DNA of 59,551 nt, from IMG/VR virus record IMGVR_UViG_3300036768_001410, positions 1-59,551 of that record; one strand, given 5' to 3'. The stretch is from a virus. Every line of letters begins with the position of its first letter. Position 1 is the stretch's first letter. The notes beneath the pieces are model-generated. The model saw only the letters and a list, made by a program, of their open reading frames with translations, had not been told where the DNA came from and did not search any database. Both the position numbers and the translations under genes were made by a program. Below are positions 14,674-59,551 of the stretch, piece by piece.

Positions 14674-15282
14674 ATGTCAGGGAGCAGCTTGGACGATAGA
14701 GTCGAGGGATACGTGTCTCGTATTCTGAACGGGGAGGGGGAGGAGGAAGCGTTTGAGCGGTTGTATGAGGCGCTCAAGCCGTTGGTTCTTCAGAGAGCCC
14801 TCCGAGTTCTGAAGAACCGAACCGATGCGGAGGATGTCGTCCAGCTCGTATTCATACGGGTCTGGAAATGCATGTACCAATGGAATCCAGCCCGAGGTGC
14901 CTTCATGGGCTGGTTCAATGAGATAACTAAGAATATCATCATAGATGTTCTTAGGAATAATCGAAGGAGGAGAACTGACTATCTGTTTCAAAACGAGATT
15001 CTTGACGAAGAATTTCGTGAGAATCTCGTGTTTGAAACGAAGGAGAGGGTTGTTGCCTCCCCACATGAGGAGGTGGAGAGAAAGGAAATCATCGAAAAGG
15101 TTTTGGAGACGGTCGAGGGATTCGAGGATTCGCGGAAGCGACCGTGGAAGGCTCGATACCTGGACCATCTCAATGTCCGCGAAGTCGCGGACTTAGAAGG
15201 GAGGAATGAAAATACGATGAAGGTGGTGCTTCTTCGTACGAATCGGGCTATCAGAAACAAACTTGATTACATGTTGGTTTAG
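14674..15282 (+). CDS. Sigma-70 family (ECF-like) RNA polymerase sigma factor
   Basis: Predicted to redirect host RNA polymerase to phage late promoters. Region 2 is clear: LQRALRVLKNRTDAEDVVQ, VFIRVWKCMYQWNP, and FMGWFNEITKNIIIDVLR, followed by basic RRRR. Region 4 is at about 155-195 (RYLDHLNVREVADLEG...VVLLRTNRAIRNKL), a helix-turn-helix. Region 3 is absent, as in ECF sigmas, and the length of 202 fits. No anti-sigma gene is adjacent. It is transcribed from its own promoter and ends at a strong terminator, just upstream of the lysis and virion block, a good position for a middle-to-late switch. A second, divergent sigma factor is at 49457. Confidence 0.88.
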   Translation: MSGSSLDDRVEGYVSRILNGEGEEEAFERLYEALKPLVLQRALRVLKNRTDAEDVVQLVFIRVWKCMYQWNPARGAFMGWFNEITKNIIIDVLRNNRRRRTDYLFQNEILDEEFRENLVFETKERVVASPHEEVERKEIIEKVLETVEGFEDSRKRPWKARYLDHLNVREVADLEGRNENTMKVVLLRTNRAIRNKLDYMLV

Positions 15283-42775: not shown

Positions 42776-42802
42776 ATGGTCTAGAAAGGTAGGGTGAGGG
42801 CG

Positions 42803-45800: not shown

Positions 45801-48661
45801 AATTGACTGAGCGGGCTATCCAGCGGTTGGAGCGTCAGCGACAGCGATTGTTGGAAGAGCGTCAAACGTTGATGTCGCGTTATAGTAGCGTTACGGAGGA
45901 GCCGTTTGATGTGGACACGGTGAAGGAGCATCTCAAAGACGCTCAGAGTGTCTTGAGGCAGGTGCGTCGAGATACGGCGTTTCACGAGCGTATTCGGGAG
46001 CGTGCGGACAAGATTCAGGTGACTATTGACTCTATCTTGTCGGATGAGGCGGCGCTCTTTGATAAGCTAGATGCCATCGCTGGTAAGAAGAACACGCCCC
46101 CAGAGGCGATTGATGCCGTGAAAGAGCAAATCCAGCGGGTTCATGGGCGCAGGATGAAGGTGCTCAATCGCCAACTGGAATCTCTTCAACAAGCTTTCAA
46201 GGAGCCCGATGCATATGACCCGTTGGTGTTCCATGTGGACGAATCCGGGAAGGTCATTACAACGCCTCTAACTCAAGCCGTCAACCGAGTCGAGCAACTA
46301 TCAAAGGCTCTCTCCGATGCCCGTTCCGTAGAAAAACTCTCTTCACAGGTTGCCGGCGTTGAAAAGGAACTCGAATTAAAGAACCAACGGCTTTCTACGT
46401 TATATCGCCAGACAGCGGATGCTACTACGGAAGATGCGCGGAATGCTCTAGCAGAGGAGATTACCAGCACGAAAGACGAAATCCGAGAGCTCAACAAGAA
46501 GCTTACCGTAGCAAGGAAGGTGGAGAAGAAAGAACGACTCCTTCGTCGAACCGAAACGGAACAAGAACGTATTGAAAATCAAATTGCTAACCTTATAGCC
46601 GGCATGCAAGAAACTCTAACGCTTGGGAGGAATGTTGACCTTGAAGAGCGTATTTTCGTCCGGCGAACACGTCGTACCGCCGAGCCTGTTGTCAGCGGAA
46701 AAGATGCAATCCTGAGGAATACAAATGAACGTGTCCGGGTAGTCAATGTATTCGACGAACCGCAACCCGATGGCTCTGTGCAGAAGAGGGCGATTATCCG
46801 ACGGAATGTAGGAACTACGGAGGAACGCGAAGAATCGGTTGAATATTCTAAGTTAAAGAGCATGCCGTCGTTCCAGCATCTTAGAATATTCACTCCAACG
46901 CAGGCCCATATCGAGCTAGTCAACGACGAGTTTGGCTTCATGTTTGACCCCAACTTTGTTCGTGCCGCGGCTACACGTGCTCAGGCACATGCGCGAACCG
47001 TGACTCTCAGTGAGTTATATGAGGAGTTAATTGATTCGGGGTTTGCAAAGCCGGTCTCGGAGGCTCCAAAGCAGGGATGGACTGAATCTCGTTACATAGA
47101 GGGCTATGCGGTTCCTAAGGAGGTAGAACAAGCCATTCATCAGGCGTTCTTCAACTGGGGAACCATGAATCCGGTATGGAAAAAGGCGGGGCTTATCTTC
47201 GATAAAATACAGCAAATTGATAAGCGATTCAAGACGCAGTACTTCCCCGGATTCACAATACAAAATATATGGTCGAACATGTGGAACATGTATACCACGA
47301 TTGGGGCAGAGACGTTCAATCCTGCCACGTCTGCGCTGGCCATGCAGCTTGTCCATCGGGACATGGTCACTAAGCGGTTGGAACGGAAAGCCGCTCTTGT
47401 TACGGAGGAAGGTGTTGCGGTACGTCGTGCATTAGAAACCCTCAATAATGAACCTATCTTGACGGATTTCAGTGGAAAGGAATGGACATGGGGGCAACTA
47501 AGGCAGGAGCTTCAGCGCCGCGACGTCGCCTTCACCGATTCATACTACGGCATTATTGACGATATGGATGCGCCCTTTGTAAAGAAGGCGCAGGGCATTC
47601 AGAAGCAAACGCCTCTGCGAAGGGTTATGGCTGCCGGAGGTAAGGTGCTTGAGGCCCCTATCGAGATGAACCAAGTGGTGGAGGAATTGGCCCGTGTTCA
47701 TGTGTTTCTATCGGAACTCAAAAAGGGAATGTCCCCGGATTTGGCGGCCGAGAGGGTTCAGCAGGCGCTCTTCCACTATCGCTCTGTAACGCCTTTCGAG
47801 AAATACGTCCTTTCTAGGCTCATCCCATTCTATAAGTTCTCTCGGAAAAACCTCGAACTTCAGGCAAAGGCATTAATCTCAGCACCGGGGCGCCTTGCTA
47901 TTCAACACAGAATGATGAATGCCCTAGAGGATGCCCTGGAAGAGGAACCCCTCGATGAAGACACCATGCAAACCCTGCCCCCTCACGTGAGGCAAGGGCT
48001 GGGGATTGTAATAAGGGCTAAGGAAGGCGGGCTAGTAAGTACAGTTAACTCTTTGCGAACTCCATTTGAGTCGGCGATGGAGACTGCTGAGGCTTTTGTG
48101 CCGGTTAAGCTAGCGCCGGAGATGAAGCTTAAGTCTCTGCAAGAGGGATTTTTGACATCGGGCGGGTTTGGCCTGCAGGCAACATCTTCGTTGATTCGAG
48201 TGCCTTTTGAAGTGCTAGCTAACGTGCGTGTCTTTGGTGGGTTCCGACAAATTGGCGATACGGTAGATATAACTTCTCTTTATAAACTGTCTCGATATAT
48301 TCCTCCTTTGGCTAAGACTGTAGACCTTCTTTTGGAGCCACGTCTCGATGTAGGTTCTGGGCAGGTAATAACATCTCATCCACGAGCGGCATATTTTCTT
48401 GCTCAGGCGATACCGGGGTTATCTAGGGCTACGGCGGACTTCGGGAAGATTGCTAACGAAAAACCTACAGCAATCGAAAAGTGGGTCGAGTTCATTAACA
48501 TCGCAGACCTATCTCACTTCACTCCAAAGGACTTTGTCGCTCTCAGGCAAAAGTGGTTCCAAGAGCAGGCTAAGAAGCAACGATATCTCCTATCGCCTAC
48601 TCCTCAGCAGATAAGCAACAACCAACCAGACATGCTCAACACGGAAAACTACATCAGATAG
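42803..48661 (+). CDS. Giant polyvalent virion protein (ejection machinery)
   Basis: About 1952 residues. Order: short coiled N-terminus with RELADAMN; the motif VGMMTTAQRAQVARGLSAF shared with the previous gene; a Pro/Ser linker (about 100-145); an Ala-rich, partly hydrophobic segment (about 230-380) that could insert in membranes; long coiled coils (about 950-1280, RIEDYNFSIQQLREQIG...); and a C-terminal module with HYRSVTPFEKYVLSRLIPFY, a signature I know from very large phage proteins of the 'polyvalent' type, thought to be injected with the DNA. I chose the ATG at 42803 over the GTG at 42794. Last gene of the virion block. Confidence 0.65.
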   Translation: MRSTPMSTALQRAREEQEARERRLRELADAMNRSIGFAGARDNLSSAPALPVSRPDVGMMTTAQRAQVARGLSAFEPPTASERHALGIQVSKGLLPYEHAPKALPSLPSPPSPSSPPSPSSLSSSAPSSPSPSSSPSSLPAPSAPADVVSEDSNGDAESGRYQQLADAMNQAFARELGQQGPQGTPRFRGHGATAEIPEPEVPIGTFIKPELREWARNPLRNPLNPLDPRNISFLSALGAEAGLVAGKTVQETVKGIVGLWTATENELKQMPETIRRNSRSIVESVGTAAGLPEEDIQRGVSTASVVSSVAGAPASAAGKGMELLGRGVVQGLILPAFNAAQSAWWGVLTLGKEQTIGRLAGKEPTLGLSELGGAVLGKTEPIEARRFLFGETPRKGKQHLIEARIQNIRGELSDEELVKAVRMEAMKSIISGASNILFDPLNWITVGEGTAAKIAGREGAIALTRQGTRRLAEAIALGSEKAKGLVQLEKNVLVNRTLEEANAIRTGASDLSSVIQRTVSPQFTAKSQIINPSIAKDLMARGFKDAEVIDRVGEITGRAIQREVADWLKDLQFIARTGKRKLPDGTIQAVAPQERAFAKGFIRENVASGLLHVNYPTVTKSSTGAVRLAMSEKQFLDVGKYAAIASTIPQLQSVQKAVEGALAVPLSLISNNWVTDWKNLGRGGVQGRVPPVVAKLIGISRDNMMFRTQEVLKRLWNTAVENNLTPEESELVQTALDTGRSLDNPRLESLRQSLANDPVVNEGIRDGKRLLDLHTHILRAYPDIDAADATTILSAIKRNISLENPRLEAVRAQVADLYKDMIRIEQASGLTISEIEEGYAPHVLPPYRDALKQTKELLKRRGISKESPEWETTIRQVQSRYEEEGFLKKATTGKNPAFAKHRGLFLLTYQDEAGNLQQIIASPSTLLAKPTTLDKVLNGILAKPLSIREKLSQRIEDYNFSIQQLREQIGDSTRADIGERIAVLDRSVGRLETALQRGKLTERAIQRLERQRQRLLEERQTLMSRYSSVTEEPFDVDTVKEHLKDAQSVLRQVRRDTAFHERIRERADKIQVTIDSILSDEAALFDKLDAIAGKKNTPPEAIDAVKEQIQRVHGRRMKVLNRQLESLQQAFKEPDAYDPLVFHVDESGKVITTPLTQAVNRVEQLSKALSDARSVEKLSSQVAGVEKELELKNQRLSTLYRQTADATTEDARNALAEEITSTKDEIRELNKKLTVARKVEKKERLLRRTETEQERIENQIANLIAGMQETLTLGRNVDLEERIFVRRTRRTAEPVVSGKDAILRNTNERVRVVNVFDEPQPDGSVQKRAIIRRNVGTTEEREESVEYSKLKSMPSFQHLRIFTPTQAHIELVNDEFGFMFDPNFVRAAATRAQAHARTVTLSELYEELIDSGFAKPVSEAPKQGWTESRYIEGYAVPKEVEQAIHQAFFNWGTMNPVWKKAGLIFDKIQQIDKRFKTQYFPGFTIQNIWSNMWNMYTTIGAETFNPATSALAMQLVHRDMVTKRLERKAALVTEEGVAVRRALETLNNEPILTDFSGKEWTWGQLRQELQRRDVAFTDSYYGIIDDMDAPFVKKAQGIQKQTPLRRVMAAGGKVLEAPIEMNQVVEELARVHVFLSELKKGMSPDLAAERVQQALFHYRSVTPFEKYVLSRLIPFYKFSRKNLELQAKALISAPGRLAIQHRMMNALEDALEEEPLDEDTMQTLPPHVRQGLGIVIRAKEGGLVSTVNSLRTPFESAMETAEAFVPVKLAPEMKLKSLQEGFLTSGGFGLQATSSLIRVPFEVLANVRVFGGFRQIGDTVDITSLYKLSRYIPPLAKTVDLLLEPRLDVGSGQVITSHPRAAYFLAQAIPGLSRATADFGKIANEKPTAIEKWVEFINIADLSHFTPKDFVALRQKWFQEQAKKQRYLLSPTPQQISNNQPDMLNTENYIR

Positions 48662-48999: not shown

Positions 49000-49482
49000 A
49001 TGAGTAAGGGGCGTCGTATGCGAGTGGATTGGTCGCGATTGGAGTTGTATGCGTCGCAGGGGATATGGAGTGAGAGTCGTTTAGCGGTTTTATTGGGGTT
49101 GAGTCCGACGTTGTTGCATGCCCGATTGATGAGCGATGCGGAGTTTCGTAGTCGTTGGGAGGAGGCATTGAATAGGGGGAAGGTGGAGATGGAGCTTCGG
49201 TTGTTGAATCGTTTAGAGGAGCGTAGTTCAGAGGGGGATGTTGGGGCGACGGTACAGTTGCTGAGGCGTTTGGAGAAGGACGATAGGGAGGGTTTGTTAG
49301 GAGGGCGGGGTGAGGTTCGCGTTGTAGTGGAGGATGTAGACGTAGCGGGATTGTTGTCGTCGGCAGAGGTTCAGGAGGTGGAGTGGTCACGTCGTAGTCT
49401 AGGTAGGCGTTTGGCGGTTCATGGGCAACGGGAGTTAGAGATAGAGGTGGAGGGGGATGGAGAGGAAGTCGAGGAAGGTTAG
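49000..49482 (+). CDS. Terminase-small-subunit-like HTH protein
   Basis: A 160-residue protein. Residues 8-45 (DWSRLELYASQGIWSESRLAVLLGLSPTLLHARLM) form a helix-turn-helix with the sequence flow of small terminase subunits. It is followed by EFRSRWEEALNRGKVEMELRLLNRL, the acidic helix that in those proteins mediates ring assembly, and by LLRRLEKDDREG. The C-terminus is acidic. It could be the DNA-recognition partner of TerL (16569) despite the 30-kb distance, or simply a regulator. The DNA is C-poor. Confidence 0.55.
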   Translation: MSKGRRMRVDWSRLELYASQGIWSESRLAVLLGLSPTLLHARLMSDAEFRSRWEEALNRGKVEMELRLLNRLEERSSEGDVGATVQLLRRLEKDDREGLLGGRGEVRVVVEDVDVAGLLSSAEVQEVEWSRRSLGRRLAVHGQRELEIEVEGDGEEVEEG

Positions 49483-50041
49483 AGATAAGGGTCGTATAGA
49501 GGAGTTGGCGTTGCGTTATAAGGAGAGTCGCGATGAGGCTACATTTGGGTTGTTATACGAATCTTGTAGGGGGTTAGTTTTGGAGTGGAGTAGGGGGATG
49601 GGATTGGATTCCGATTTAGAGGACGTGGAGCAGGAGGTATGGCTATTGGTATTCCGTAAGATAGGCCTGTGGGAGAGTAGAGGGAATAGTTTTTTGAATT
49701 GGCTTTATGTATTGACTCGTAATGTAGTTCGTATGTGGCATAGGAGTAGGAATAGAGAGTTAGAGGGTCGTAGTAGTTATACGAGTTATATGGAGTATCG
49801 TCGTTCTGCGGATGAGTTGCGATGTGTATTGGAGTTGGAGCGTCGGTTACGGATATTAGATGTAGAGCGTTTATCTAGGGAAGTATTAGGGTCTAAGTTA
49901 TCCGAAATAGTATCGTATAGGGTTCAAGGACTATCTCCGGCCGTAGTAGCAGAGTTGCTAGGCAAGAGTAGGGGATCAATTTGCGTATCGTTTCATCGAG
50001 GTGTACATCGCCTTCTGTCGAGGATGTCATGTATTGCGTAA
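49457..50041 (+). CDS. Second sigma-70 family sigma factor
   Basis: A 194-residue ECF-like sigma. Region 2 shows LLYESCRGLVLEWSRGMGLD, DLEDVEQEVWLLVFRKIGLW and FLNWLYVLTRNVVRMWHRSRNRE. Region 4 is at about 150-190 (IVSYRVQGLSPAVVAELLGKSRGSICVSFHRG), a helix-turn-helix. Sequence identity with the sigma at 14674 is low, so the two probably recognise different promoters. The ATG overlaps the previous gene by 26 bases. G-rich, C-poor DNA. Confidence 0.78.
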   Translation: MERKSRKVRDKGRIEELALRYKESRDEATFGLLYESCRGLVLEWSRGMGLDSDLEDVEQEVWLLVFRKIGLWESRGNSFLNWLYVLTRNVVRMWHRSRNRELEGRSSYTSYMEYRRSADELRCVLELERRLRILDVERLSREVLGSKLSEIVSYRVQGLSPAVVAELLGKSRGSICVSFHRGVHRLLSRMSCIA

Positions 50042-50806: not shown

Positions 50807-51382
50807 ATGGACAACGAGGCGATGGATGCAATGCGTGTGAAGAACGCAAATGCGGTTCTTGCGCGAGTGATATTCCGCCATGCGTGGATAACTCGTCGAA
50901 TCGAGGAGATTGAGCATGAACTTTCCATTTATCGAGAGTACTACGACTCGCTGTCTTCATTGTTGTCTCTCGTAGAGGGGCGTTCGAGGGATTCAAGGGA
51001 GTTGGATTCAGCAAAGTCGCCGTTGGATGATGGCTTTCGATTCCGTAATGCGGAAGTAGAGGTTAGCCGGTGGCTACGACAACATTCGTTCGTGGATGGG
51101 CCCGTAACGGATATGAGCGGGAAGGTTGGGTTCAAGCTTCCCGACGGTAATGTTTGGGTTGATGCGTCCGCGTTTGAAGAGGCTTTTGGAGAGAGATACG
51201 ATGTGCGGGCATTGCTGGGTCATCTGGCTCGGCAGGGCTTGATAGAGACGATTCGGGACCACGAAGGGAAGCTTCGGTTTCGTGTGTATCGAAGGATAGG
51301 CGGGCATCGTCGTTCGTTTATCGTGTTTCGTAAGGGGTTCGCCGGAAAAACGCACGCATTTGCCCTTAGGGGCGTTCGATGA
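50807..51382 (+). CDS. Hypothetical protein; 3' end formed by a host-type repeat
   Basis: 191 residues from the ATG at 50807 (AAGGGAGGG upstream; the TTG at 50780 is less likely). N-terminal coil (ITRRIEEIEHELSIYREYYDSLSSL) and a C-terminal wHTH-like domain (YDVRALLGHLARQGLIETIRDHEGKLRFRVYR), a layout like the protein at 183-671. The last 13 codons (GKTHAFALRGVR) coincide with AAAAACGCACGCATTTGCCC, exactly one arm of the repeat at 14046-14076. The reading frame may therefore have been extended by insertion of the repeat. Confidence 0.6.
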   Translation: MDNEAMDAMRVKNANAVLARVIFRHAWITRRIEEIEHELSIYREYYDSLSSLLSLVEGRSRDSRELDSAKSPLDDGFRFRNAEVEVSRWLRQHSFVDGPVTDMSGKVGFKLPDGNVWVDASAFEEAFGERYDVRALLGHLARQGLIETIRDHEGKLRFRVYRRIGGHRRSFIVFRKGFAGKTHAFALRGVR

Positions 51383-51511: not shown

Positions 51512-51605
51512 TTGACATACTACGCCGTTCGTAGTATACTGTAGTCAACGTCGTCGAGGGTTGGTCGGGCATGGGGTCCGGCGCGGCGGCGGAGGAGAAA
51601 AGGGA
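51512..51605 (+). promoter_or_regulatory. Accessory expression module 1 (promoter, operator, leader RNA)
   Basis: TTGACA 51512-51517, 17 bp, TATACT 51535-51540. The spacer contains ACTACG-ccgtt-CGTAGT, a dyad that a repressor could bind over the promoter. The leader folds into two stacked stems: outer GTCGTC with GGCGGC, inner GTCGGGC with GTCCGGC, both using G-U pairs as RNA, with an unpaired G-rich bulge on the 5' side. GGAGGAG follows immediately, so the structure abuts the ribosome site. It drives the operon starting at 51606. Five relatives follow downstream. Confidence 0.82.
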
Positions 51606-52286
51606 ATGTTGCCTGAAGAAGTTATTACTATTCTTCTACAGGAGACGAAGTCTCTTGTAGGTAGAAATTTCAAGGTCTTCGAGTCTGCCCTCCGTAGGGC
51701 AGCTCAAGAGCTGCCATTGGAATGGTGGCAGCAACGGCTGAATCTCACTGTAGAGGAACTCCTCCGTCAAAGTGAGATTCGGTGGCGGGTGGGAGAAGTA
51801 GCCGCAGAGGTGGTGAAGGCCACAAGAGCGGCTGCAGCAGAAAGGCTCCCGGAAGCCGTGAAAACGGTTGCCCAGGAGATCGAGACCGAATTTTTCGGTC
51901 TTCCTCACCCACCAATTAAGGGTGGCGTGATGGAGACTGAACAATATCTCACGCGGGAATGGTTCGCGTGGGGTTCCGAAAAGGAGGAGGGTCACTATAC
52001 GGAGACGGTGCCCCTCCTTCCGAAGGGGGCACACGACTCCGCAGCGTGGAAGGAGATAATCCTTGCACGTCTTGCGGAGGTGTGCGGCCTCCAAAGCCCT
52101 CCTGTCGAAATTGAGGAGGGCGCGGAGGAAGGTGCCGAGCCGGAGTCCTCTATTTTGAGGGAGGCCCGGCGTATCTACAAGGAACTCTTTGTGGAGGTGG
52201 AGTGTCGCCTCCGCAATGAGGATAAGTACGAAAGCCCCGTGCGAGTACGGGTGGCCGTACCTCGTGGATGGCTATCGGAATCTTAG
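51606..52286 (+). CDS. Hypothetical protein, first gene of accessory operon
   Basis: 226 residues from the ATG at 51606 behind the leader of module 1. The N-terminal half is helical (LPEEVITILLQETKSLVGRN, then LPLEWWQQRLNLTVEELLRQ). The middle holds the aromatic YLTREWFAWGSEKEEGHY, and the C-terminal part is a beta strand region (ELFVEVECRLRNEDKYESPVRVRVAVP). I recognise no family. It precedes two small genes in the same transcript, and its codon use resembles that of the other cassette genes. Confidence 0.6.
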   Translation: MLPEEVITILLQETKSLVGRNFKVFESALRRAAQELPLEWWQQRLNLTVEELLRQSEIRWRVGEVAAEVVKATRAAAAERLPEAVKTVAQEIETEFFGLPHPPIKGGVMETEQYLTREWFAWGSEKEEGHYTETVPLLPKGAHDSAAWKEIILARLAEVCGLQSPPVEIEEGAEEGAEPESSILREARRIYKELFVEVECRLRNEDKYESPVRVRVAVPRGWLSES

Positions 52287-52298
52287 GAGGAAGAGAAG

Positions 52299-52556
52299 AT
52301 GAGTCATCATACATTCGATTCCCTCCTCGGCAATGCCGAGGTGAGGATGAAGAAGGCATGGTGGCGGTATGTATCCGCCATGAGAGAGGAGGACAAACTG
52401 AAAGACGCCATCAAGTTTGGCGTCATCAAAGAAACCCGCAAGGTGAGAGAACTTCGGAAGCTTCTCCGAAGAAAAACGGAGAAGGCTTCTAAGGAATGGA
52501 TAGACTATTCTAATCGTCTCATCGCCCTCTACGAGAGGGCTAAGAAGGAGGAGTAA
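52299..52556 (+). CDS. Small basic hypothetical protein
   Basis: An 85-residue, Lys/Arg-rich helical protein (NAEVRMKKAWWRYVSAMREE... KVRELRKLLRRKTEKASKEW). No motif beyond probable coiled coil. Start has TAGGAGGAAGAG upstream. It is followed two bases later by the next gene. Confidence 0.6.
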   Translation: MSHHTFDSLLGNAEVRMKKAWWRYVSAMREEDKLKDAIKFGVIKETRKVRELRKLLRRKTEKASKEWIDYSNRLIALYERAKKEE

Positions 52557-52557
52557 C

Positions 52558-52920
52558 ATGTTCTTTAACGTAAGCAACCACCCTCACGAGAAGTGGGGGG
52601 AACGCCAGCTGGAAGAGGCTCGGCGGCTCGGCGGGGAAATTGTGGACATCCCCTTCCCCAACGTATCGCCGACGCTGGATACCGAGGAGTTGGAGGACCT
52701 CGTGTATTCTGTTATCAAGCAGGTACACGAGAAGCGGGATGGCAAACAAGATGTCGCTCTTGTCCAGGGCGAGCACACTCTTACGTTCTTGCTAGTCAAT
52801 AAGCTGGCGGAACTTGGGGTCGTGCCCGTCGCTGCCACTTCGGAGCGGCGAGTGACCGAGACTCCACAAGGGAAAGTCTCGGTATTTGAATTCTGCAAGT
52901 TCCGCCGCTATCCGTTTTAG
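52558..52920 (+). CDS. Rossmann-like small protein, possible ring nuclease/anti-CRISPR
   Basis: 120 residues with an alternating strand-helix layout: FFNVSNHPHEKW (strand 1 and loop), GGEIVDIPFPNV (strand 2), a long helix, DVALVQGEHTLTFLLVNKLAE (strand 3 and helix), VVPVAATSERRVTET (strand 4), and an aromatic C-terminal strand. I recall this 'NxSNHPxxxW...QGExTLTFxLV...TSERxV' pattern from small proteins found beside type III CRISPR systems. They look like CARF-type folds of the Csx15/16/20 kind, which degrade cyclic oligoadenylate. If right, this is an anti-type-III-CRISPR candidate. I cannot verify the family here. GGAGGAGTAAC precedes ATG; a terminator follows. Confidence 0.6.
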   Translation: MFFNVSNHPHEKWGERQLEEARRLGGEIVDIPFPNVSPTLDTEELEDLVYSVIKQVHEKRDGKQDVALVQGEHTLTFLLVNKLAELGVVPVAATSERRVTETPQGKVSVFEFCKFRRYPF

Positions 52921-52929
52921 GTTTCCATA

Positions 52930-52962
52930 GCGCCCGTCGCCTACAAGCGGCGGGCGCTTTTG
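52930..52962 (+). terminator. Terminator of the first accessory operon
   Basis: GCGCCCGTCGC (52930-52940) pairs with GCGGCGGGCGC (52947-52957, one mismatch), followed by TTTTGCTT. The next two genes start only 15 bases later and need read-through or an unseen promoter. Confidence 0.82.
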
Positions 52963-52976
52963 CTTAGGAGAATAAA

Positions 52977-53159
52977 ATGCGCCCATACTCATTTTTGTAT
53001 GAGACACCGGAAGAGGCGGAGGAAGCCCGCCTCTTGGACTTCCTAGAATGCCTTCACGACGAATACGAAGGCATGGAACTTCTGTTCGACGATGTCCGTG
53101 AGATGTTGCGGCAAGCGGGAGTTTTCCTCCATCAGGAGGATGAATATGAGATTTCGTAA
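52977..53159 (+). CDS. Small acidic protein coupled to the ATPase
   Basis: A 60-residue, strongly acidic protein (MRPYSFLYETPEEAEEARLLDFLECLHDEYEG...). TTAGGAGAATAAA precedes the ATG. The ATPase start lies inside its last codons, so the two are co-translated and may interact. No family recognised; an inhibitor or DNA-mimic role is possible but unproven. Confidence 0.6.
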   Translation: MRPYSFLYETPEEAEEARLLDFLECLHDEYEGMELLFDDVREMLRQAGVFLHQEDEYEIS

Positions 53160-54117
53160 GATTGTCCTTAAGAACTGGAAGAACTTCAGGGAAACTGAAA
53201 TTAAGGTCGGTGACCATCTCATTCTCGTCGGGGAAAACGCGTCGGGCAAGTCTAACTTGCTCGATGCGTTCCGGTTTTTAAGGGACATTTCCTCCGATGG
53301 AGGAAGCCTGCAGAAGGCAGTGCTGAGTCGAGGAGGAATGAGAAGTATCCGTAACTTTTATGTAAAACAAGAAGATGTATCAATACGCGTGGAGATGGAA
53401 GACGAGTTCGGGAAGCAATGGATTTACGAACTTGTCTTCAAACAAGCCTCACGACCACGAAAAGAAGTGGAGGTCGTGAAAGAATATGTTGCATTCGATG
53501 GACGTTCCTTGCTGGAACGTTCGAATGAAGAAGACAGGAAAGACCCGGCTCGATTGTCTGCGTCTTTTCTGCGTTCTACTGTGGCAAACAAGGACTTTCG
53601 GGTGATTCCAGAGTTTTTCTCTTCTATTCGATTCGCGGGAAGCTTCCTGTGGGAAATGGAAACTACGCCTACTGAGATTCTAGCGTCAAATTTGACGCTC
53701 ATTGAGTGGGAGCTTCAGGATGCCTTGAAGATTAATTTGAGGCTTTCAGTAGAGGAAGAGTACGGACGTACGTCTATCCTCTTTCGGATTGGGCGTAGGA
53801 AAATAAGGGAAGAAGATGTCTCAGAGGGAACGTTTCGGCTGATGGGGTTGCTTTGGGATGCCCTCAATGCAACGGGTCCTCTCCTGATAGAAGAACCGGA
53901 ACGTCATCTTGCTCCAGGGACAGCGTTAAAGCTGTCCAACATCTTGAAAAGGATTAACCCCGACCTCCAAATCATCGCGACTACGAATTCCCACTACGTA
54001 ATTGACAGTTTCGGAGCCATCAACACCGTACGTCTGTTGCGGGCATCGAAGGAAACCCACGTTGTAGAGGGATTAACCTATGTGATGGCGATTATGTTGA
54101 GCCATGCGGAACTCTAG
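53146..54117 (+). CDS. AAA15/RecF-like ABC-type ATPase
   Basis: 323 residues. Walker A GENASGKSNLLDAF with the preceding FRKIVLKNWKNFRETEIKVG is the classic start of RecF/SMC-like and AAA15 ATPases. The signature region is EEDVSEGTFRLMGLL, Walker B is GPLLIEEPERHLAP, and the switch ATTNSHYVIDSF closes the fold. There is no fused TOPRIM nuclease. In bacteria such ATPases commonly pair with a nuclease (OLD, PARIS AriA with AriB, AAA15 with DUF4276), but no such partner follows. It could act alone, or with the acidic protein upstream, as phage-phage exclusion or as a decoy. ATG at 53146 is six bases after CAGGAGG. Confidence 0.78.
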   Translation: MRFRKIVLKNWKNFRETEIKVGDHLILVGENASGKSNLLDAFRFLRDISSDGGSLQKAVLSRGGMRSIRNFYVKQEDVSIRVEMEDEFGKQWIYELVFKQASRPRKEVEVVKEYVAFDGRSLLERSNEEDRKDPARLSASFLRSTVANKDFRVIPEFFSSIRFAGSFLWEMETTPTEILASNLTLIEWELQDALKINLRLSVEEEYGRTSILFRIGRRKIREEDVSEGTFRLMGLLWDALNATGPLLIEEPERHLAPGTALKLSNILKRINPDLQIIATTNSHYVIDSFGAINTVRLLRASKETHVVEGLTYVMAIMLSHAEL

Positions 54118-54134
54118 TCCTCACTCTCGTCCTC

Positions 54135-54160
54135 GCCCCTACCAGAAACCCAGTAGGGGC
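54135..54160 (+). terminator. Terminator after the ATPase gene
   Basis: GCCCCTAC (54135-54142) pairs with GTAGGGGC (54153-54160) around a 10-base loop. The tail is not T-rich (GTCATCATCT), so efficiency is uncertain. Confidence 0.6.
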
Positions 54161-54240
54161 GTCATCATCTATGCCGTCACCGAACCCGTCATCGCAACCG
54201 TCAGCGACGCCGTCAGCGACTCCGCCGCGTAGCCGCCTGA
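54161..54240 (+). repeat. CCGTCATC / CCGTCAGCGA short-repeat block
   Basis: CCGTCAC, CCGTCATCGC and two copies of CCGTCAGCGA follow each other at 9- to 15-base intervals. Comparable blocks precede the next promoters (about 55326-55405, 56350-56415, 57575-57655 and 58347-58515). They lie between terminator and promoter of each cassette. Function unknown; they may be binding sites or recombination seams. Confidence 0.65.
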
Positions 54241-54337
54241 CCGCGCCCCCCGACCCCAACAACCGCGCCCTCTACCTGAGAACGAAGCCCGCCCCACGAC
54301 TCCCCAACAAAATTTTCGAGATTCGCGCAAAATCCCC

Positions 54338-54431
54338 TTGACACACTACGCATTGTGTAGTATGATACGTATAGAAGCCGCTGGGGACGGTCGGGCAAGG
54401 AGCCCGACGCGGCGGCGGGAGGAGAGAAGAA
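54338..54431 (+). promoter_or_regulatory. Accessory expression module 2
   Basis: TTGACA 54338-54343, 17 bp, TATGAT 54361-54366, preceded by GCGCAAAAT. The spacer dyad is ACTAC-gcattgt-GTAGT. The leader pairs GCCGC with GCGGC (outer) and GTCGGGC with GCCCGAC (inner, loop AAGGA), leaving TGGGGACG as a 5' bulge, then GGAGGAGAG. It drives the first WD40 gene. Confidence 0.88.
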
Positions 54432-55277
54432 ATGAACTCGGTGGCTTTCAGCCCGGACGGACAATATTTCGCGACGGGTTTGCTGGATAAGACGGCGCGG
54501 CTTTGGGAAGTCGATTCGGGTCGGGAAGTCCGCACGTTCACCGGACATACGCGCGGAGTGAATTCGGTGGCGTTCAGCCCGGACGGACGCTATCTCGCGA
54601 CGGGCTCGTGGGATAGGACGGCGCGGCTTTGGGAAGTCGATTCGGGTCGGGAAGTCCGCACGTTCACCGGACATACGCGCGGAGTGACCCCGGTAGCGTT
54701 CAGCCCGGATGGACAATATTTCGCGACGGGTTCGCTGGATAAGACGGTGCGTCTTTGGGACGTCGCCTCGGGGCGGGAAGTCCGCACGTTCACCGGACAT
54801 ACGCGCGGAGTGACCTCGGTAGCGTTCAGCCCGGACGGACAATATTTCGCGACGGGCTCGTGGGATGATACGGCGCGTCTTTGGGACGTCGCCTCGGGTC
54901 GGGAAGTCCGCACGTTCGTCGGGCATACGCACTGGGTGTGGTCGGTAGCGTTCAGCCCGGATGGACAATATCTCGCGACCGGTTCGGATGATAAGACGGC
55001 GCGTCTTTGGGACGTCGCCTCGGGTCGGGAAATCCACATGTTCACCGGACATACGCACTGGGTGTGGTCGGTGGCGTTCAGCCCGGATGGACAATATCTC
55101 GCGACCGGTTCGGATGATAAGACGGCGCGGCTTTGGGACGTCGCCTCGGGTCGGGAAGTCCGCACGTTCACCGGACATACGCGCGGAGTGACCTCGGTAG
55201 CGTTCAGCCCGGACGGACGCTATCTCGCGACGGATTCGGCTGACAAGACGACGCGGATTTTGGAGGTCGCGCTGTAG
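54432..55277 (+). CDS. Stand-alone WD40 beta-propeller, seven blades
   Basis: 281 residues made only of WD40 repeats of 42 residues: xSVAFSPDGQYxATGSxDxTARLWDVASGREVRTFxGHT. Six full copies are followed by a last, shorter one ending TTRILEVAL. Because the chain starts at strand a of blade 1 and ends at strand c of blade 7, one outer strand is missing. Blades are nearly identical, even in DNA (126-bp period), so they spread by recent duplication. No signal peptide, membrane segment or other domain is present. WD40 domains are protein-binding platforms and often form the sensor part of bacterial NACHT/STAND proteins. A free propeller could compete with such sensors. Own promoter and terminator. 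Confidence 0.88.
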   Translation: MNSVAFSPDGQYFATGLLDKTARLWEVDSGREVRTFTGHTRGVNSVAFSPDGRYLATGSWDRTARLWEVDSGREVRTFTGHTRGVTPVAFSPDGQYFATGSLDKTVRLWDVASGREVRTFTGHTRGVTSVAFSPDGQYFATGSWDDTARLWDVASGREVRTFVGHTHWVWSVAFSPDGQYLATGSDDKTARLWDVASGREIHMFTGHTHWVWSVAFSPDGQYLATGSDDKTARLWDVASGREVRTFTGHTRGVTSVAFSPDGRYLATDSADKTTRILEVAL

Positions 55278-55282
55278 GTTGC

Positions 55283-55317
55283 GCCCCGCCATTGACAACA
55301 ATGGCGGGGCATTATTA
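55283..55317 (+). terminator. Terminator of WD40 cassette 1
   Basis: GCCCCGCCATT (55283-55293) pairs with AATGGCGGGGC (55300-55310), then ATTATTATGTAC. The tail ATTATTATGTAC returns almost unchanged after two later cassette genes. Confidence 0.88.
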
Positions 55318-55522
55318 TGTACGCCCTCCGACGTCACCACCAACGACGGCAACGTCATCGCGACCGTCACCTTTGGCCGTCATCTAGCCGTCAGCGACTA
55401 AGCCGATTAGCCGCTTGACCGCGACTCCACGACCCCGCCTACCGCGCCCCCTCCCCCACCTGAGGGCGAAGCCCACTCCACGAAGCGACTACAAAATTTT
55501 GGGGGCTTCGCTCAAAATCCTC

Positions 55523-55618
55523 TTGACACACTACGCAATGCGTAGTAGGCTACGTATAGACGCCGCTGGGGGACGGTCGAGCACAACGCTCGACGCGGCG
55601 GCGGCAGGAGGAAAGGGA
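55523..55618 (+). promoter_or_regulatory. Accessory expression module 3
   Basis: TTGACA 55523-55528, 17 bp, TAGGCT 55546-55551 (weaker -10). Spacer dyad ACTACGC-aat-GCGTAGT has perfect 7-bp arms. Leader: outer GCCGC/GCGGC, inner GTCGAGC/GCTCGAC, bulge TGGGGGACG, then AGGAGG. It precedes a damaged WD40 gene. Confidence 0.86.
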
Positions 55619-56272
55619 ATGCTTCTCGCGACGGGATCGGATGATAAGACGGCGCGGCTATGGGAAGTCGCGTCGGGCAGGGAAGTCCGCACGTTCGCAG
55701 GGAATATGGGCCCTGTGTGGTCGGTGGCGTTCAGCCCCGACGGCCGTTATCTCGCTACGGCCTTGGCGGATAGGACAGCGCGTCTTTGGGACGTCGCTTT
55801 GGGTCGAGAAGTCCGCATGTTTGCCGGGCGTAGGGACTCGGTGAATGCGGTGGCCTTCAGCCTCGACGGCCGCTATCTCGCGACTGCATTGGCGGACAGG
55901 ACAGCGCGTCTTTGGGACGTCGCTTTGGGTCGAGAAGTCCGCATGTTTGCCGGTCATACGGGCCCGATGTGGTCGGTGGCGTTTAGCCCCGACGGACGCT
56001 ATCTCGCCACGGGCTCCTGGGATAGGACCTCGCGTCTTTGGGACATCGCTTTGGGTCAGGAAGTCCGCATATTCGCCGGACATACGGGCCCGGTGTGGTC
56101 GGTCGCCTTCAGCCCGGACGGGCGGTATCTCGCTACGGGTTCGGCGGACAGGACTGCGCGGCTATGGGAAGTCGCGTCGGGTCAGGAAGTCCGTCGGCAT
56201 AACGGGCATACGGACTTAGTGAGATCGGTTGCGTTCAGCCCGAACGGACTCCATCTCGCGACGGGCTCATAG
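55619..56272 (+). CDS. Stand-alone WD40 protein, shortened copy
   Basis: 217 residues from the ATG at 55619. The chain begins in the middle of a blade (MLLATGSDDKTARLWEVASG) and ends in the middle of another (SPNGLHLATGS-stop), giving four complete blades plus two partial ones that might close into a five-bladed ring. After the stop, the frame continues GAA CGG ACG TAG: with TGG in place of the TAG it would read GSWERT, matching GSWDRT of intact blades. A nonsense mutation therefore seems to have cut the gene. The -10 of its promoter is also the weakest of the six, so this cassette may be decaying. Confidence 0.82.
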   Translation: MLLATGSDDKTARLWEVASGREVRTFAGNMGPVWSVAFSPDGRYLATALADRTARLWDVALGREVRMFAGRRDSVNAVAFSLDGRYLATALADRTARLWDVALGREVRMFAGHTGPMWSVAFSPDGRYLATGSWDRTSRLWDIALGQEVRIFAGHTGPVWSVAFSPDGRYLATGSADRTARLWEVASGQEVRRHNGHTDLVRSVAFSPNGLHLATGS

Positions 56273-56287
56273 GAACGGACGTAGCCG

Positions 56288-56330
56288 GAAGCCTAGCCTA
56301 CTCATCACGTAGGCTAGGCTTCTTTCTTTC
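56288..56330 (+). terminator. Terminator of WD40 cassette 2
   Basis: GAAGCCTAGCCTAC pairs with GTAGGCTAGGCTTC around a 7-base loop, followed by TTTCTTTC. Confidence 0.9.
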
Positions 56331-56530
56331 AAGCCGCCGCAACCCCCGCCGCCAACGTCATCCAAACCGTCAGCGAACCCGTCATCGCGACCGTCAGCGA
56401 GGCCGTCAGCGAATCCTCCGAGTAGCCGCTTGACCGCGCCACCAGACACACCAACCGCGCTCTCTACCTGAGAACGAAGACCGCCCCACGACTCCCCGAC
56501 AAAATTTTGGGGGATTCGCGCAAAATACCC

Positions 56531-56625
56531 TTGACAATCTACGCAAGACGTAGTATGCCTACATACAGAAGCCGCTGGGGACGGCCGAGCGTGGTGTTCG
56601 GCGCGGCGGCGCAGGAGGCAGAAAG
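56531..56625 (+). promoter_or_regulatory. Accessory expression module 4
   Basis: TTGACA 56531-56536, 17 bp, TATGCC 56554-56559. Spacer dyad CTACG-caaga-CGTAG. Leader: outer GCCGC/GCGGC, inner GCCGAGC/GTTCGGC (base changes on both sides preserve pairing), bulge TGGGGAC, then AGGAGG. Confidence 0.85.
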
Positions 56626-57495
56626 ATGAAGTGGGTTTACGGTCATACGGCGGGGGTGCGGTCGGTCGCGTTCAGCCCGGAAGGGTGGTATCTAGCTACC
56701 GGCTCTTCGGACTGGACGGCGAGGCTGTGGGAGGTGGCCTCGGAAAGGGAGGTCCGCCGTTTCGTCGGGCATACGGACGCGGTAACGTCGGTCGCGTTCC
56801 GCCCGGACGGACGTTATCTCGCGACGGGTTCGGAGGATAACACGGCGCGGCTTTGGGAGGTGGAATCGGAAAGGGAGGTCCGCCGGTTCGTCGGGCATAC
56901 GTACTGGGTGAGCGCGGTCGCCTTCAGCCCGGACGGCCGCTATCTCGCGACGGGTTCGCTGGATAAAACGGCACGGCTTTGGGAAGTCGCTTCGGGGCGG
57001 GAAGTCCGCCGGTTCGACGGCCATACGACAACCGTATGGTCGGTCGCGCTCAGCCCGGACGGGAGGTATCTCGCAACTAGCTCGTGGGACGGTGAGGCAC
57101 GGCTTTGGGAGGTCGCCTCAGGGCAGGAAGTCCACTGCTTCTCCGGTCATACGGACCCGGTATGGTCGGTTGCCTTCAGCCCCGACGGCCGCTATCTCGC
57201 GACGGGCTCGCTGGATAAGACTGCACGGCTTTGGGACGTCGCCTCGGGTCGGGAGGTCCGACGGTTCACCCGACACGCTAAGGCCGTGCGGGCGGTTGCC
57301 TTTAGCCCGGACGGGCGGTATCTCGCGACCGGTTCGGAGGATAAGACAGCGCGGGTTTGGGACGTCTCCTCGGGTCGGGAGGTCCACCGTTTCTTCGGAT
57401 ACATGGACTGGGTGAGCGCGGTCGCGTTCAGCCCGGACGGCCGCTATCTCGCTACCAGTGCCGATGAGAAAGCGGCACTGGTGTTGACGCTATGA
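56626..57495 (+). CDS. Stand-alone WD40 beta-propeller, seven blades (second intact copy)
   Basis: 289 residues: a short lead MKWVYGHTAGV, then seven repeats of the pattern SVAFSPDGRYLATGSxDxTARLWEVASGREVRRFxGHT, the last ending SADEKAALVLTL. The lead can supply the outer strand missing in the first WD40 copy, so the ring can close normally. Tyr/Trp changes at the blade tops (GHTYWV, GHTTTV, GYMDWV) are concentrated at the GH-adjacent positions that form the binding face, while the framework is constant. No signal peptide or other domain. Confidence 0.88.
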   Translation: MKWVYGHTAGVRSVAFSPEGWYLATGSSDWTARLWEVASEREVRRFVGHTDAVTSVAFRPDGRYLATGSEDNTARLWEVESEREVRRFVGHTYWVSAVAFSPDGRYLATGSLDKTARLWEVASGREVRRFDGHTTTVWSVALSPDGRYLATSSWDGEARLWEVASGQEVHCFSGHTDPVWSVAFSPDGRYLATGSLDKTARLWDVASGREVRRFTRHAKAVRAVAFSPDGRYLATGSEDKTARVWDVSSGREVHRFFGYMDWVSAVAFSPDGRYLATSADEKAALVLTL

Positions 57496-57512
57496 AGCTA
57501 TGATTGCGTCAA

Positions 57513-57545
57513 AAGCCCCGCTTAATCCAACAGCGGGGCTTCATT
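57513..57545 (+). terminator. Terminator of WD40 cassette 3
   Basis: AAGCCCCGC (57513-57521) pairs with GCGGGGCTT (57533-57541), followed by CATTATGTAC. Confidence 0.85.
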
Positions 57546-57811
57546 ATGTACGCCCGCCGACAACGCCACCAACGACGGCAACGTCATCTAGCCGTCATCG
57601 CGACCGTCAGCGAACCCGTCATCGCGACTGTCATCGCGACCGTCAGCGACGCCGCCACAAGTCTCCGCGCCTTCCGCCCACGCGGAAACTTGTGACCGCG
57701 CCCACAATCTCATGGCGCCGGCATATGAGATGGCCTTGCGAACGTGCTCTCAATCACAATCTCATCTGCGTGGACACCAAAAGAAAATTGCGTGACGCGC
57801 GCAAAATTCTC

Positions 57812-57909
57812 TTGACAGTCTACGTAGGACGTAATACTATACATACAGACGCCGCTGGGGACGGTCGAGCACAACGCTCGACGCGGCGGTGCGAGTAGGA
57901 GAACGGAAG
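57812..57909 (+). promoter_or_regulatory. Accessory expression module 5
   Basis: TTGACA 57812-57817, 17 bp, TACTAT 57835-57840. Spacer dyad CTACG-tagga-CGTAa, the least symmetric copy. Leader: outer GCCGC/GCGGC, inner GTCGAGC/GCTCGAC, bulge TGGGGACG, then AGGAGAACGG. The gene-free stretch before it (57546-57811) holds CCGTCATC/CCGTCAGCGA repeats and TATGAGATGGCCTT (57725-57738), which recurs at 58721. Confidence 0.85.
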
Positions 57910-58299
57910 ATGAGCGAGAGACACGTCGTAGACGTGGACGACGGCCAAGTACTCCTAATCGTAGACCAGGCAGGGGTGTTTGACGTGGCGGCCGGGAATG
58001 TTCCTGGCCACGTTTGGATCGTTGAAGAAGGTGACGAAGAGGTCCCTTGGGTTGTGTACTCACGGGACAATGCAAGGGTTGTCATCCTCCCGCCCCCGAG
58101 AACATGGGGGGCAAAGACCGAAGAGGAAATGTTCCACCGATTTGGTGACCTTCGATCCGCCCGTTTCTGGCATCACCAAGCCTTTGAAACGGGTGCCTTT
58201 CGGGAAATTGTCGCCCACTACAGGCCAGACCTTCTGGCCGTATGGGCGGAAAATGAGGCGGCGGTCGCCGCGCTAGATGAACCCCTTGTAACTGAGTAG
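57910..58299 (+). CDS. Hypothetical acidic protein in its own cassette
   Basis: 130 residues from the ATG at 57910 (AGGAGAACGGAAG). The first half is beta-rich (HVVDVDDGQVLLIVDQAGVFDVAAG), the second half helical and aromatic (TEEEMFHRFGDLRSARFWHH). No recognised family, no membrane segment. Sharing the WD40 promoter and leader suggests co-regulation with them. Confidence 0.65.
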   Translation: MSERHVVDVDDGQVLLIVDQAGVFDVAAGNVPGHVWIVEEGDEEVPWVVYSRDNARVVILPPPRTWGAKTEEEMFHRFGDLRSARFWHHQAFETGAFREIVAHYRPDLLAVWAENEAAVAALDEPLVTE

Positions 58300-58302
58300 G
58301 GA

Positions 58303-58337
58303 AATGCCCCTCTCGTGAGAGAGGGGCATTATTATGT
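58303..58337 (+). terminator. Terminator of cassette 5
   Basis: AATGCCCCTCTC pairs with GAGAGGGGCATT around GTGA, followed by ATTATGTAC. Confidence 0.88.
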
Positions 58338-58651
58338 ACCGGGAGAGCCGTCACCTAGCCCTCATCTAGCCATCAGCGGCAACGCCTTCCAATCCGTAGT
58401 CACCTAACCGTCATCCAACCCGCCAACGCCAACGTCATCCAAACCGTCAGCGACAATCACGTGACCGTCATCCTGCCGTCATCCAAACCGTCAACGACAA
58501 CGTCATCGGTGTCGGACGCAACGTGACTCCGCCGCCGGCAAGAGCCGAGGGGTGTTCGACTCTGCCTTATTCGCGCCCTGATTCTGGCCAGATTCTTCGT
58601 GATATTGTAAGAGAATCGCTTGTCCAAAGTATGAGATATCCTGTCTTATGA
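58338..58651 (+). repeat. CCGTCATC-type repeat block, no gene
   Basis: The longest of the short-repeat blocks: CCGTCATCC, AACGTCATCC, ACCGTCAGCGA and relatives occur at least ten times to about 58515. The rest to 58651 (GTGTCGGACGC...) shows nothing I can assign. Confidence 0.6.
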
Positions 58652-58685
58652 GACGTCCTTGTGATTGTGAGCGCAATCACAATGT
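58652..58685 (+). repeat. 34-bp inverted repeat, left copy
   Basis: Begins GACGTCCTTGTGATTGTGAG and is perfectly complementary to the last 34 bases of the window (59518-59551). Each copy contains TTGTGATTG/CAATCACAA, an operator-like palindrome. Confidence 0.92.
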
Positions 58686-58860
58686 CCTGTCGTCTGCTGT
58701 GGCATGGGCAAGGGCATGGCTATGAGATGGCCTTAGTCTGCTGTGGCGTAGGCATGGCATAGGCAAGGCTAGGGATAGGGTTGGCGTAGGGATAGGGATA
58801 GGCAAGGGATAGGCTAGGACGTGGGCTTGGACGTGGGCTTGGACGTGAACGTGACCGCCG
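58686..58860 (+). repeat. G-rich degenerate tandem repeat
   Basis: GTCTGCTGTGGC occurs at about 58691 and 58736, GGACGTGGGCTT twice near 58819, and GGCAAGG/GGGATAGG units repeat about every six bases between. The plus strand is poor in C. No gene. The long minus-strand frames here (PIPIPTPTL-like) are repeat artefacts. Confidence 0.6.
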
Positions 58861-58892
58861 AAAGAAAATTGCGTCGAGCGCGCAAAATTGTC

Positions 58893-58992
58893 TTGACACA
58901 CTACGTGATGCGTAGTATGATGGGGATAGGCGCTTCCGTAGGAGAGTCGGGCACGGCGCCCGACGCGGGAGCGGCAGGAGGGAAAGAAAGAG
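58893..58992 (+). promoter_or_regulatory. Accessory expression module 6
   Basis: TTGACA 58893-58898, 17 bp, TATGAT 58916-58921, preceded by GCGCAAAAT. Spacer dyad ACTACG-tgatg-CGTAGT. Leader: outer GCTTCC/GGGAGC (changed on both sides relative to the others), inner GTCGGGC/GCCCGAC, bulge GTAGGAGA, then AGGAGGG. Confidence 0.85.
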
Positions 58993-59388
58993 ATGAGCGT
59001 CGAGGACATGGACGAGTCGTGGGACGAGGAAGAGGACGAGTACGAAGACGAGTGGGAAGAAGAGGTGGAGTTTCGTTCCACGGTAGACGCCATTGTAGGC
59101 GTCGTCGTGGACGATGATGGTGAGGAACACTATGTGCGACGGTTAGAAACCGTCTACACGTCGTGGACGGAATATGAGCAGGATGCCTCTGTAGTGGAGG
59201 TGGACCTGAGTGACTGGGCGCGGTGGTTGTGGTCTATCCACCTGGCCAAGTGCCGGGCGGAAGAATTGCCACCTGGCCACCCCTCCTTGGACCACTGTCC
59301 ACTCCGCGAGCAGTGGCGATGGCAAGAGCGTGGAGATATCGCGGGCCTCGCGGAGGCCTGCGATGAGTGGAGGATGACGACGGGCTAA
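58993..59388 (+). CDS. Very acidic small protein
   Basis: 131 residues. Residues 3-28 are nearly all Asp/Glu (SWDEEEDEYEDEWEEEVEF), followed by a beta part (STVDAIVGVVVDDDGEEHYV) and a Trp-rich C-terminal half (DWARWLWSIHLAKCRAEEL, CDEWRM). DNA-mimic inhibitors of host proteins often have such charge, but there is no family match. The ATG follows the leader of module 6. Confidence 0.65.
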   Translation: MSVEDMDESWDEEEDEYEDEWEEEVEFRSTVDAIVGVVVDDDGEEHYVRRLETVYTSWTEYEQDASVVEVDLSDWARWLWSIHLAKCRAEELPPGHPSLDHCPLREQWRWQERGDIAGLAEACDEWRMTTG

Positions 59389-59392
59389 GATA

Positions 59393-59421
59393 TAGCCCGT
59401 CGCAGTCAAGCGACGGGCTAT
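59393..59421 (+). terminator. First terminator after the last gene
   Basis: ATAGCCCGTCGC pairs with GCGACGGGCTAT around a 6-base loop. No strong T-tract. Confidence 0.65.
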
Positions 59422-59432
59422 CCTAAGCCAAG

Positions 59433-59465
59433 GCGTCTCGCTCGTGAGAGCGAGACGCTTTCTTT
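59433..59465 (+). terminator. Second terminator after the last gene
   Basis: GCGTCTCGCTC pairs with GAGCGAGACGC around GTGA, followed by TTTCTTT. Confidence 0.85.
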
Positions 59466-59517: not shown

Positions 59518-59551
59518 ACATTGTGATTGCGCTCACAATCACAAGGACGTC
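59518..59551 (-). repeat. 34-bp inverted repeat, right copy at window end
   Basis: Exact reverse complement of 58652-58685. The window stops at its last base, so either an element ends here or the assembly broke at the repeat. Confidence 0.92.

Follow-up and report, generated by a model that had tools for sequence, protein, structure and literature searches.

Several described systems resemble the locus discussed here. In cluster K mycobacteriophages a 13-bp repeat, the start-associated sequence, is present in 11-19 copies, and inverted repeats of 17 bp accompany about half of these (PMC3203893). Both ring nucleases of viruses and islands of anti-defence genes are well documented (PMC7648647), and the Csx20 family, a biochemically confirmed ring nuclease specific for cyclic tetra-adenylate (cA4), has members in 4 of 28,114 phage genomes (PMC12409355). 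Among WD40 proteins, a conserved framework with diverse hotspots is general to the highly repetitive members (PMC5587647), and in HET-D and HET-E of Podospora strong positive selection acts on codons 7/9 and 25/27, the neighbours of the conserved codons 8 and 26, at sites on the propeller's top face (PMC1805685). The element analysed here is an array at positions 51512 to 59388 of the IMG/VR virus record IMGVR_UViG_3300036768_001410, in which six genes or operons each follow a copy of one promoter-operator-leader module; the window is the whole of that record (59,551 bp, classed as linear), and all module copies, genes and hairpins of the array given below are on its plus strand. We read the array as an accessory island, probably for counter-defence, that would have grown by duplication of one repressible high-expression cassette, and give this reading, with its full mechanism included, an even chance of being correct.

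The pattern TTGACA-NN-CTACG-N5-CGTARTA, allowing up to three mismatches, has exactly six matches in the record (51512, 54338, 55523, 56531, 57812 and 58893), whereas dinucleotide shuffles yield 0.07 matches on average and one at most. A covariance model built from the six copies finds the same six at 67-87 bits, with the next best score in the window at 13, so that the claim of a first-pass annotation of this DNA, six copies of one module with one gene or operon each, holds. The module combines a near-consensus sigma-70 promoter, an operator dyad within the spacer, a two-helix leader hairpin and a Shine-Dalgarno sequence. Copy 1 (51512-51605, 67 bits), which reads TTGACA-N17-TATACT followed by leader and Shine-Dalgarno sequence, has the operator in its spacer like the others: copies 2 (54338-54431, 85.7 bits), 3 (55523-55618, 87 bits), 4 (56531-56625, 77.2 bits), 5 (57812-57909, 76 bits) and 6 (58893-58992, 74.9 bits). 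The distance from the -35 box to the ATG is 94-100 bp at all six genes or operons, and the spacer is 17 bp in every copy and is filled by CTACG-N5-CGTAG, with one mismatch in copies 2 and 5. The arms of this dyad are nearly invariant across the copies and its N5 centre is variable, which is the pattern that an operator predicts. The -10 box ranges from good (TATGAT, TATACT) down to weak (TAGGCT, TATGCC), and most copies have A/T tracts immediately 5' of the -35 box that are reminiscent of UP elements.

The leader, which is about 65 nt long, consists of an 8-bp and a 7-bp helix with a purine-rich bulge between them, followed by the unpaired Shine-Dalgarno sequence; the hairpin starts about 10 nt past the -10 box in each copy, that is, near the predicted 5' end of the transcript. 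In the alignment of the six leaders 97.8% of the helix cells are paired and four pairs have changed on both sides, and the resulting covariation score was reached by none of 500 shuffles. In particular, the outer helix of copies 1 and 6 has diverged in sequence with its pairing preserved. The lowest-energy single-sequence fold of copy 4 keeps the inner helix and pairs the outer strands differently. The leader has no match in Rfam at gathering scores and is thus not a listed riboswitch or structured leader.

Each unit also ends in a hairpin of its own. These closing hairpins are found at all six units with fold z-scores from -4.2 to -7.5: unit 1 (54134-54161, without a T tract, z -4.4), unit 2 (55283-55310, z -5.2), unit 3 (56287-56323, z -7.5), unit 4 (57513-57541, terminator-like, z -4.2), unit 5 (58303-58330, z -5.3) and unit 6, where two terminator-like hairpins follow each other (59392-59458, z -6.8 and -5.5). 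The strong terminators of the first-pass annotation are therefore present as hairpins at six of six units, but a T-rich tail follows only in units 3 and 6; the tails are ATTATTATG in units 2 and 5, TTCATTATG in unit 4 and GTCATCATC in unit 1. With a putative promoter, leader and closing hairpin in every one, the units do appear to be autonomous and moron-like under a shared cassette, as that annotation had proposed. The repeat blocks that it placed between the units are likewise there: CCGTCA occurs 21 times in the 1.6 kb of gaps against 0.9 expected, mostly at a spacing of 12 bp and always on the same strand, in all five gaps, as degenerate 12-bp CCGTCA-NCGNNA repeats of which 54166-54225 is an example.

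The sequence upstream of the promoters indicates how part of the array arose. Units 2, 3 and 4 have a stretch of homologous sequence, 190 bp long, 5' of the promoter (78-87% identity; scores of 74-122 against about 5 for shuffled sequence), which makes these units, the three that carry WD40 genes, duplicates of one unit. The stretch is weakly common to unit 5 and is not common to units 1 and 6, which have only the module itself in common with the other units.

The cargo of unit 1 is an operon of five genes, and it holds the clearest functional homology of the array. Gene c (52558-52920, 120 aa) is a Csx20-like ring nuclease by its PADLOC profile, to which it matches over its full length (7e-29; residues 1-118 on profile positions 1-114 of 114), in agreement with the ring-nuclease-like gene noted in the first pass, and its viral relative L121 is 40% identical. 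The operon proposed around this gene had, however, been described without its AAA ATPase. This is gene e (53146-54117), an AAA_21 ATPase with HEC-01A as its best PADLOC match (4e-66), which is also AriA/OLD-like and thus resembles the ATPases of defence systems rather than anti-defence ones; a search of GenBank phages gave no match to it, and no partner gene of this HEC-01A/AriA-type ATPase was identified. Between the two lie a terminator-like hairpin (52929-52958, z -4.4), which may control how much Csx20 is made relative to the AAA ATPase, and a 60-aa open reading frame (ORF), gene d (52977-53159). The operon opens with two ORFans: gene a (51606-52286, 226 aa, isoelectric point (pI) 5.0), for which no Pfam, PHROG, phage or viral relative was found, and the basic gene b (52299-52556, 85 aa).

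The cargo of units 2 to 4 is WD40 sequence only, and no NACHT/STAND NTPase is fused to any of the three proteins. Gene 2 (54432-55277, 281 aa) encodes seven blades of 42 aa, the last without strand d, and gene 4 (56626-57495, 289 aa) encodes seven blades with an N-terminal strand that closes the ring. The AlphaFold2 model of gene 4 is a seven-blade ring (predicted local distance difference test (pLDDT) 95.6; predicted template-modelling score (pTM) 0.92), and its best structural match is the WD40 domain of PkwA (5yzv; template-modelling (TM) score 0.97, 47% identity). Gene 3 (55619-56272, 217 aa) starts in mid-blade, spans about five blades and ends in a TAG stop that sits where the other blades carry TGG; since 216 residues of its AlphaFold2 model overlay seven-blade propellers at about 1 Å, the predicted structure is an open arc and not a ring. 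Of the three WD40 propellers first claimed, free WD40 cargo and two seven-blade proteins thus stand, but the third does not make a full ring.

Together the three genes yield 19 alignable blades, each of exactly 42 residues. In our own blade numbering, positions 1, 5, 6, 8, 24, 26 and 41 are hypervariable with almost exclusively non-synonymous changes, and most framework positions show mainly synonymous change. The hypervariable pairs 6/8 and 24/26 sit on either side of the conserved residues V7 and D25; a one-residue offset places them at the selected sites of HET-D/E described above. Likewise, five of the seven hypervariable sites coincide with the seven sites of high non-synonymous to synonymous substitution ratio (dN/dS) in PMC12222747 under a six-residue offset that was aligned by eye, and the chance of this coincidence, conditional on that offset, is 5e-4. 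As the same pattern is general to highly repetitive WD40s, the hypervariable face would show diversified ligand binding rather than immune function.

No further copy of the module came to light in the searches made, from which records of the window's own genome or of its very near relatives may be missing. The full promoter and leader pattern has no match in 84,980 GTDB genomes, and searches of IMG/VR by leader consensus or relaxed patterns gave no true match; the annotation had suggested that the module might turn up at unrelated host genes, as a sign of contamination or chance, and it was found at none in the phage and bacterial genomes searched. Candidates that were set aside as chance are 21 IMG/VR matches to the leader consensus and seven to the relaxed operator-plus-leader pattern, all in a context without the module, and the weak, scattered matches of the leader covariance model on 32 genomes or records (E 1.6e-4 to 0.05); the promoter pattern matched 12 IMG/VR records, none with the leader of the array. 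The best GTDB relatives of the WD40 proteins are at most 62% identical and come from many phyla, so that no donor emerges from GTDB. The nearest cellular WD40s belong to STAND, TIR, kinase, caspase-like and secreted proteins alike, a sorting into classes that rests on simple sequence motifs. Among GenBank phages similar WD40 proteins occur in two records only, and exact peptide patterns found none in IMG/VR. A WD40 fold is in itself no novelty for a phage, since other WD40-like phage proteins appear in a structure library (9-33% identity).

If the spacer dyad is an operator, its neighbours in other genomes may hint at the kind of protein that binds it. Viral records of three kinds, unrelated to one another, have the operator, without the leader, next to genes of the HTH_26 type (YozG-like XRE), and CTACG-N5-CGTAG is a candidate operator family of these small regulators. 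CTACG-N5-CGTAG promoters near HTH_26 were seen at loci L144, L147-L149 and L157 (viral records G032, G033, G035 and G037). The operator also lies about 50-80 bp 5' of PadR genes in two Chloroflexota genomes (L166; L201/L209), a position that suggests autoregulation; these two PadR genes seem to be relatives, and at other PadR loci examined no general association with the operator was seen. Across 400 Chloroflexota genomes the operator pattern occurs in three, equal to the three of a reversed control pattern, so the count is background and only the position of the two matches before PadR is informative. Taken together, these loci suggest that small autoregulated DNA-binding proteins might use this palindrome. 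They leave the array's own regulator unnamed, because the window has no PadR and HTH_26 only below the cut-off; no repressor was found on the contig, and its ORFs include no homologue of the XRE regulators at the neighbouring loci. The ORF directly 5' of the array (50810-51382) was considered as a local regulator, and domain scans gave nothing credible.

Judged by its genes, the contig comes from a tailed phage, since it carries those for a terminase large subunit, a portal, a DnaB helicase, a replication initiator, a DNA methyltransferase and two extracytoplasmic function (ECF)-like sigma factors. The terminase is only 22-29% identical to GenBank phages among the matches listed. An IMG/VR contig, L040, is 92% identical over 10.7-28.4 kb, with the array region outside its coverage, and no relative spanning 51-59 kb was found; the taxon number of L040, 3300010938, occurs in a study of the Chocolate Pots hot springs, Yellowstone (PMC6137239). 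The two sigma factors, both with region 2 (14674-15282 and 49457-50041), are thus on one phage genome. Two very large proteins are encoded at 34553-40327 (1924 aa) and 42794-48661 (1955 aa), and no relatives of the C-terminal half of the latter were found in IMG/VR.

The remaining units of the array are single genes. Unit 5 (57910-58299) encodes an acidic ORFan of 129 aa with pI 4.6, for which a search found no relatives, and unit 6 (58993-59388) a very acidic one of 131 aa with pI 4.1 and a charge of -29; these are the two small acidic proteins of the first pass. The 594 bp that separate units 5 and 6, more than in any other gap, contain telomere-like degenerate runs (GGGATAGG, GGCTAGG and GGACGTGGGCTT) at 58740-58840. 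The last cassette is surrounded by an exact 34-bp inverted repeat (58652-58685 and 59518-59551), the second arm of which is the record end, and the array may continue past an assembly break there. Both arms include the CRP-type consensus TGTGA-N6-TCACA, and there is also a partial copy at 57736-57760.

A mechanism for a repressible accessory island can be proposed as follows. Host RNA polymerase would read the sigma-70 promoter, aided by the UP-like A/T tracts, and a small dimeric repressor, coming either from the host or from phage sequence beyond the contig, would bind the operator between the -35 and -10 boxes and keep the units off. On entry, or as phage copies accumulate, this repressor could be titrated, so that all units would fire together, early and independently of the phage operons. 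The 5'-terminal stem-loop would protect the mRNA with its Shine-Dalgarno sequence left free, and the hairpin terminator after the gene or genes would close each cassette. As for the products, Csx20 would degrade cyclic tetra-adenylate and so blunt type III CRISPR, the WD40 rings may bind protein ligands via their diversified top face, and the acidic proteins could be inhibitors or DNA mimics. The excess of modules over shuffled sequence, the conservation of the dyad, the leader covariation, the upstream homology, the Csx20 and defence-like ATPase homologies and the operators beside regulators elsewhere all support this reading. Several observations weigh against it. The -10 elements of units 3 and 4 are weak, WD40 gene 3 is truncated, and gene c reaches 49.6 bits with the NCBIfam Csx20 model, where the cut-off is 70. 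Csx20 is also the single array protein with a clear counter-defence homologue, the others being the AAA ATPase, WD40 proteins or ORFans, of which there are four. The GC content at third codon positions (GC3) of the WD40 genes is 0.70-0.75 against 0.34-0.61 in the phage core, which would fit recent acquisition and makes their use by the phage no more than a possibility.

That composition is one reason to ask whether 51.4-59.5 kb is host flank or a chimeric assembly on a phage contig. The WD40 genes have a GC content of 0.63-0.65 and distinct codon use, the sole close relative of the contig (L040) stops short of this region, and the inverted repeat at the record end is a plausible assembly break; but the module is absent from all GTDB genomes searched, the same module precedes unit 1, whose composition is phage-like and which encodes a ring nuclease, and just 130 bp separates the array from the preceding phage-side ORF, so that a foreign origin of the whole region seems quite improbable. 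The WD40 genes alone might instead be passive, captured host blade arrays that recombine up and down in number and bring the phage no benefit. Amplification of a single blade is a frequent origin of new propellers (PMC9218822), 300-nt blade-containing stretches within gene 2 are 85-90% identical to each other, and the three genes begin at different blade phases, gene 3 being cut at both ends. Yet the contrast between the framework codons and the seven variable positions means that selection kept the fold and diversified the face, perhaps in the donor, and each WD40 gene retains its promoter, leader, Shine-Dalgarno sequence and terminator; we accord passive repeats little probability.

The first-pass annotation had offered two explanations of its own. 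In one, the units are lysogenic conversion genes under one switch; in the form weighed here, which includes superinfection exclusion, a prophage repressor would control all units and the products, the AAA ATPase among them as a defence gene, would act in the lysogen against other phages. One operator in six of six promoters, the PADLOC match of the AAA protein and the presence of this operator type in an element that encodes HTH_26 regulators and a serine recombinase would all suit such a switch, but no integrase or CI-like repressor is among the window genes scanned (the record may be a fragment), neither PadR nor an above-cut-off HTH_26 takes its place, and the contig has a terminase, a portal, DnaB and two ECF-like sigma factors; as worded, one switch for lysogenic conversion is not supported, and we place the idea on the unlikely side. 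The other explanation takes the WD40 proteins as decoys; as soluble mimics of the sensor end of host STAND or NOD-like receptor (NLR)-like proteins, they would capture the trigger or poison oligomerisation. The rings lack effector and NTPase parts, their variable positions match the HET-D/E ligand face, unit 4 is predicted to form a complete ring, and STAND or TIR proteins are among the homologues; against this, kinase, caspase-like and secreted proteins are equally among the best homologues, all at 62% identity or less, a hypervariable face is common to repetitive WD40s in general, and no host sensor is known. Similarity does not favour any single class, so decoys for NACHT/STAND sensors could not be upheld as stated and have a slim chance of being correct. 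The bolder form of the idea, in which free WD40 rings with an NLR-like face neutralise host sensors or their triggers, co-switched with a ring nuclease, and the array is the first NLR-repeat phage evasion array, is distinctly unlikely in our view.

If the accessory-island reading is true, the short promoter-operator-hairpin sequence marks genes of this phage group as accessory and probably as directed against defence, and any ORFan that follows it could be taken up as a candidate for testing. As phage cargo, free WD40 rings whose variable face resembles that of NLRs would be of a new kind and would tie phage counter-defence to the recognition repeats of bacteria and fungi. In addition, the six natural variants of the module are a ready set for probing the role of the leader hairpin.

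The serial array under one regulatory box had initially been regarded as having no known precedent, and here cluster K mycobacteriophages are a precedent (PMC3203893), in that their start-associated sequences (SAS/ESAS) also place one box before many small phage genes. The two have no common sequence, however: the 13-bp box of cluster K (a GGGATAGGAGCCC repeat at the start codon) is not present in the six aligned leaders, and the box of the array combines a sigma-70 promoter, a spacer operator and a covarying leader of some 65 nt, with a terminator for every unit. With anti-defence islands (PMC7648647) the array has small accessory genes in common, at least one likely counter-defence gene standing among ORFans, but it differs by a cassette copy per unit, WD40 cargo and the lack of an identified aca-type regulator. 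Its genes resemble phage morons in having their own promoter and terminator and a foreign composition, and differ in that one cassette serves a row of six, which includes three duplicates. Gene c matches the PADLOC Csx20 profile over its full length and belongs to a family already seen in four phage genomes (PMC12409355), yet it falls under the NCBIfam cut-off, its activity is putative and an AAA ATPase follows it in the operon. The 42-aa blades, conserved framework, diverse hotspots and seven-blade fold (TM 0.97) are those of the highly repetitive WD40s (PMC5587647; PkwA, 5yzv), whereas the array versions are free-standing, phage-encoded and without a kinase or partner domain. Similarly, the variable blade positions match the positively selected codons of HET-D and HET-E (PMC1805685, PMC12222747), but the array proteins have no NACHT or HET domain and form one seven-blade ring. 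Repeated regulatory boxes (PMC3203893), anti-defence islands (PMC7648647), phage Csx20 (PMC12409355) and repetitive WD40s (PMC5587647) are thus each known individually; new in the material searched is their combination, together with the six-copy spacer operator and covarying leader and the free NLR-like WD40 rings as phage cargo.

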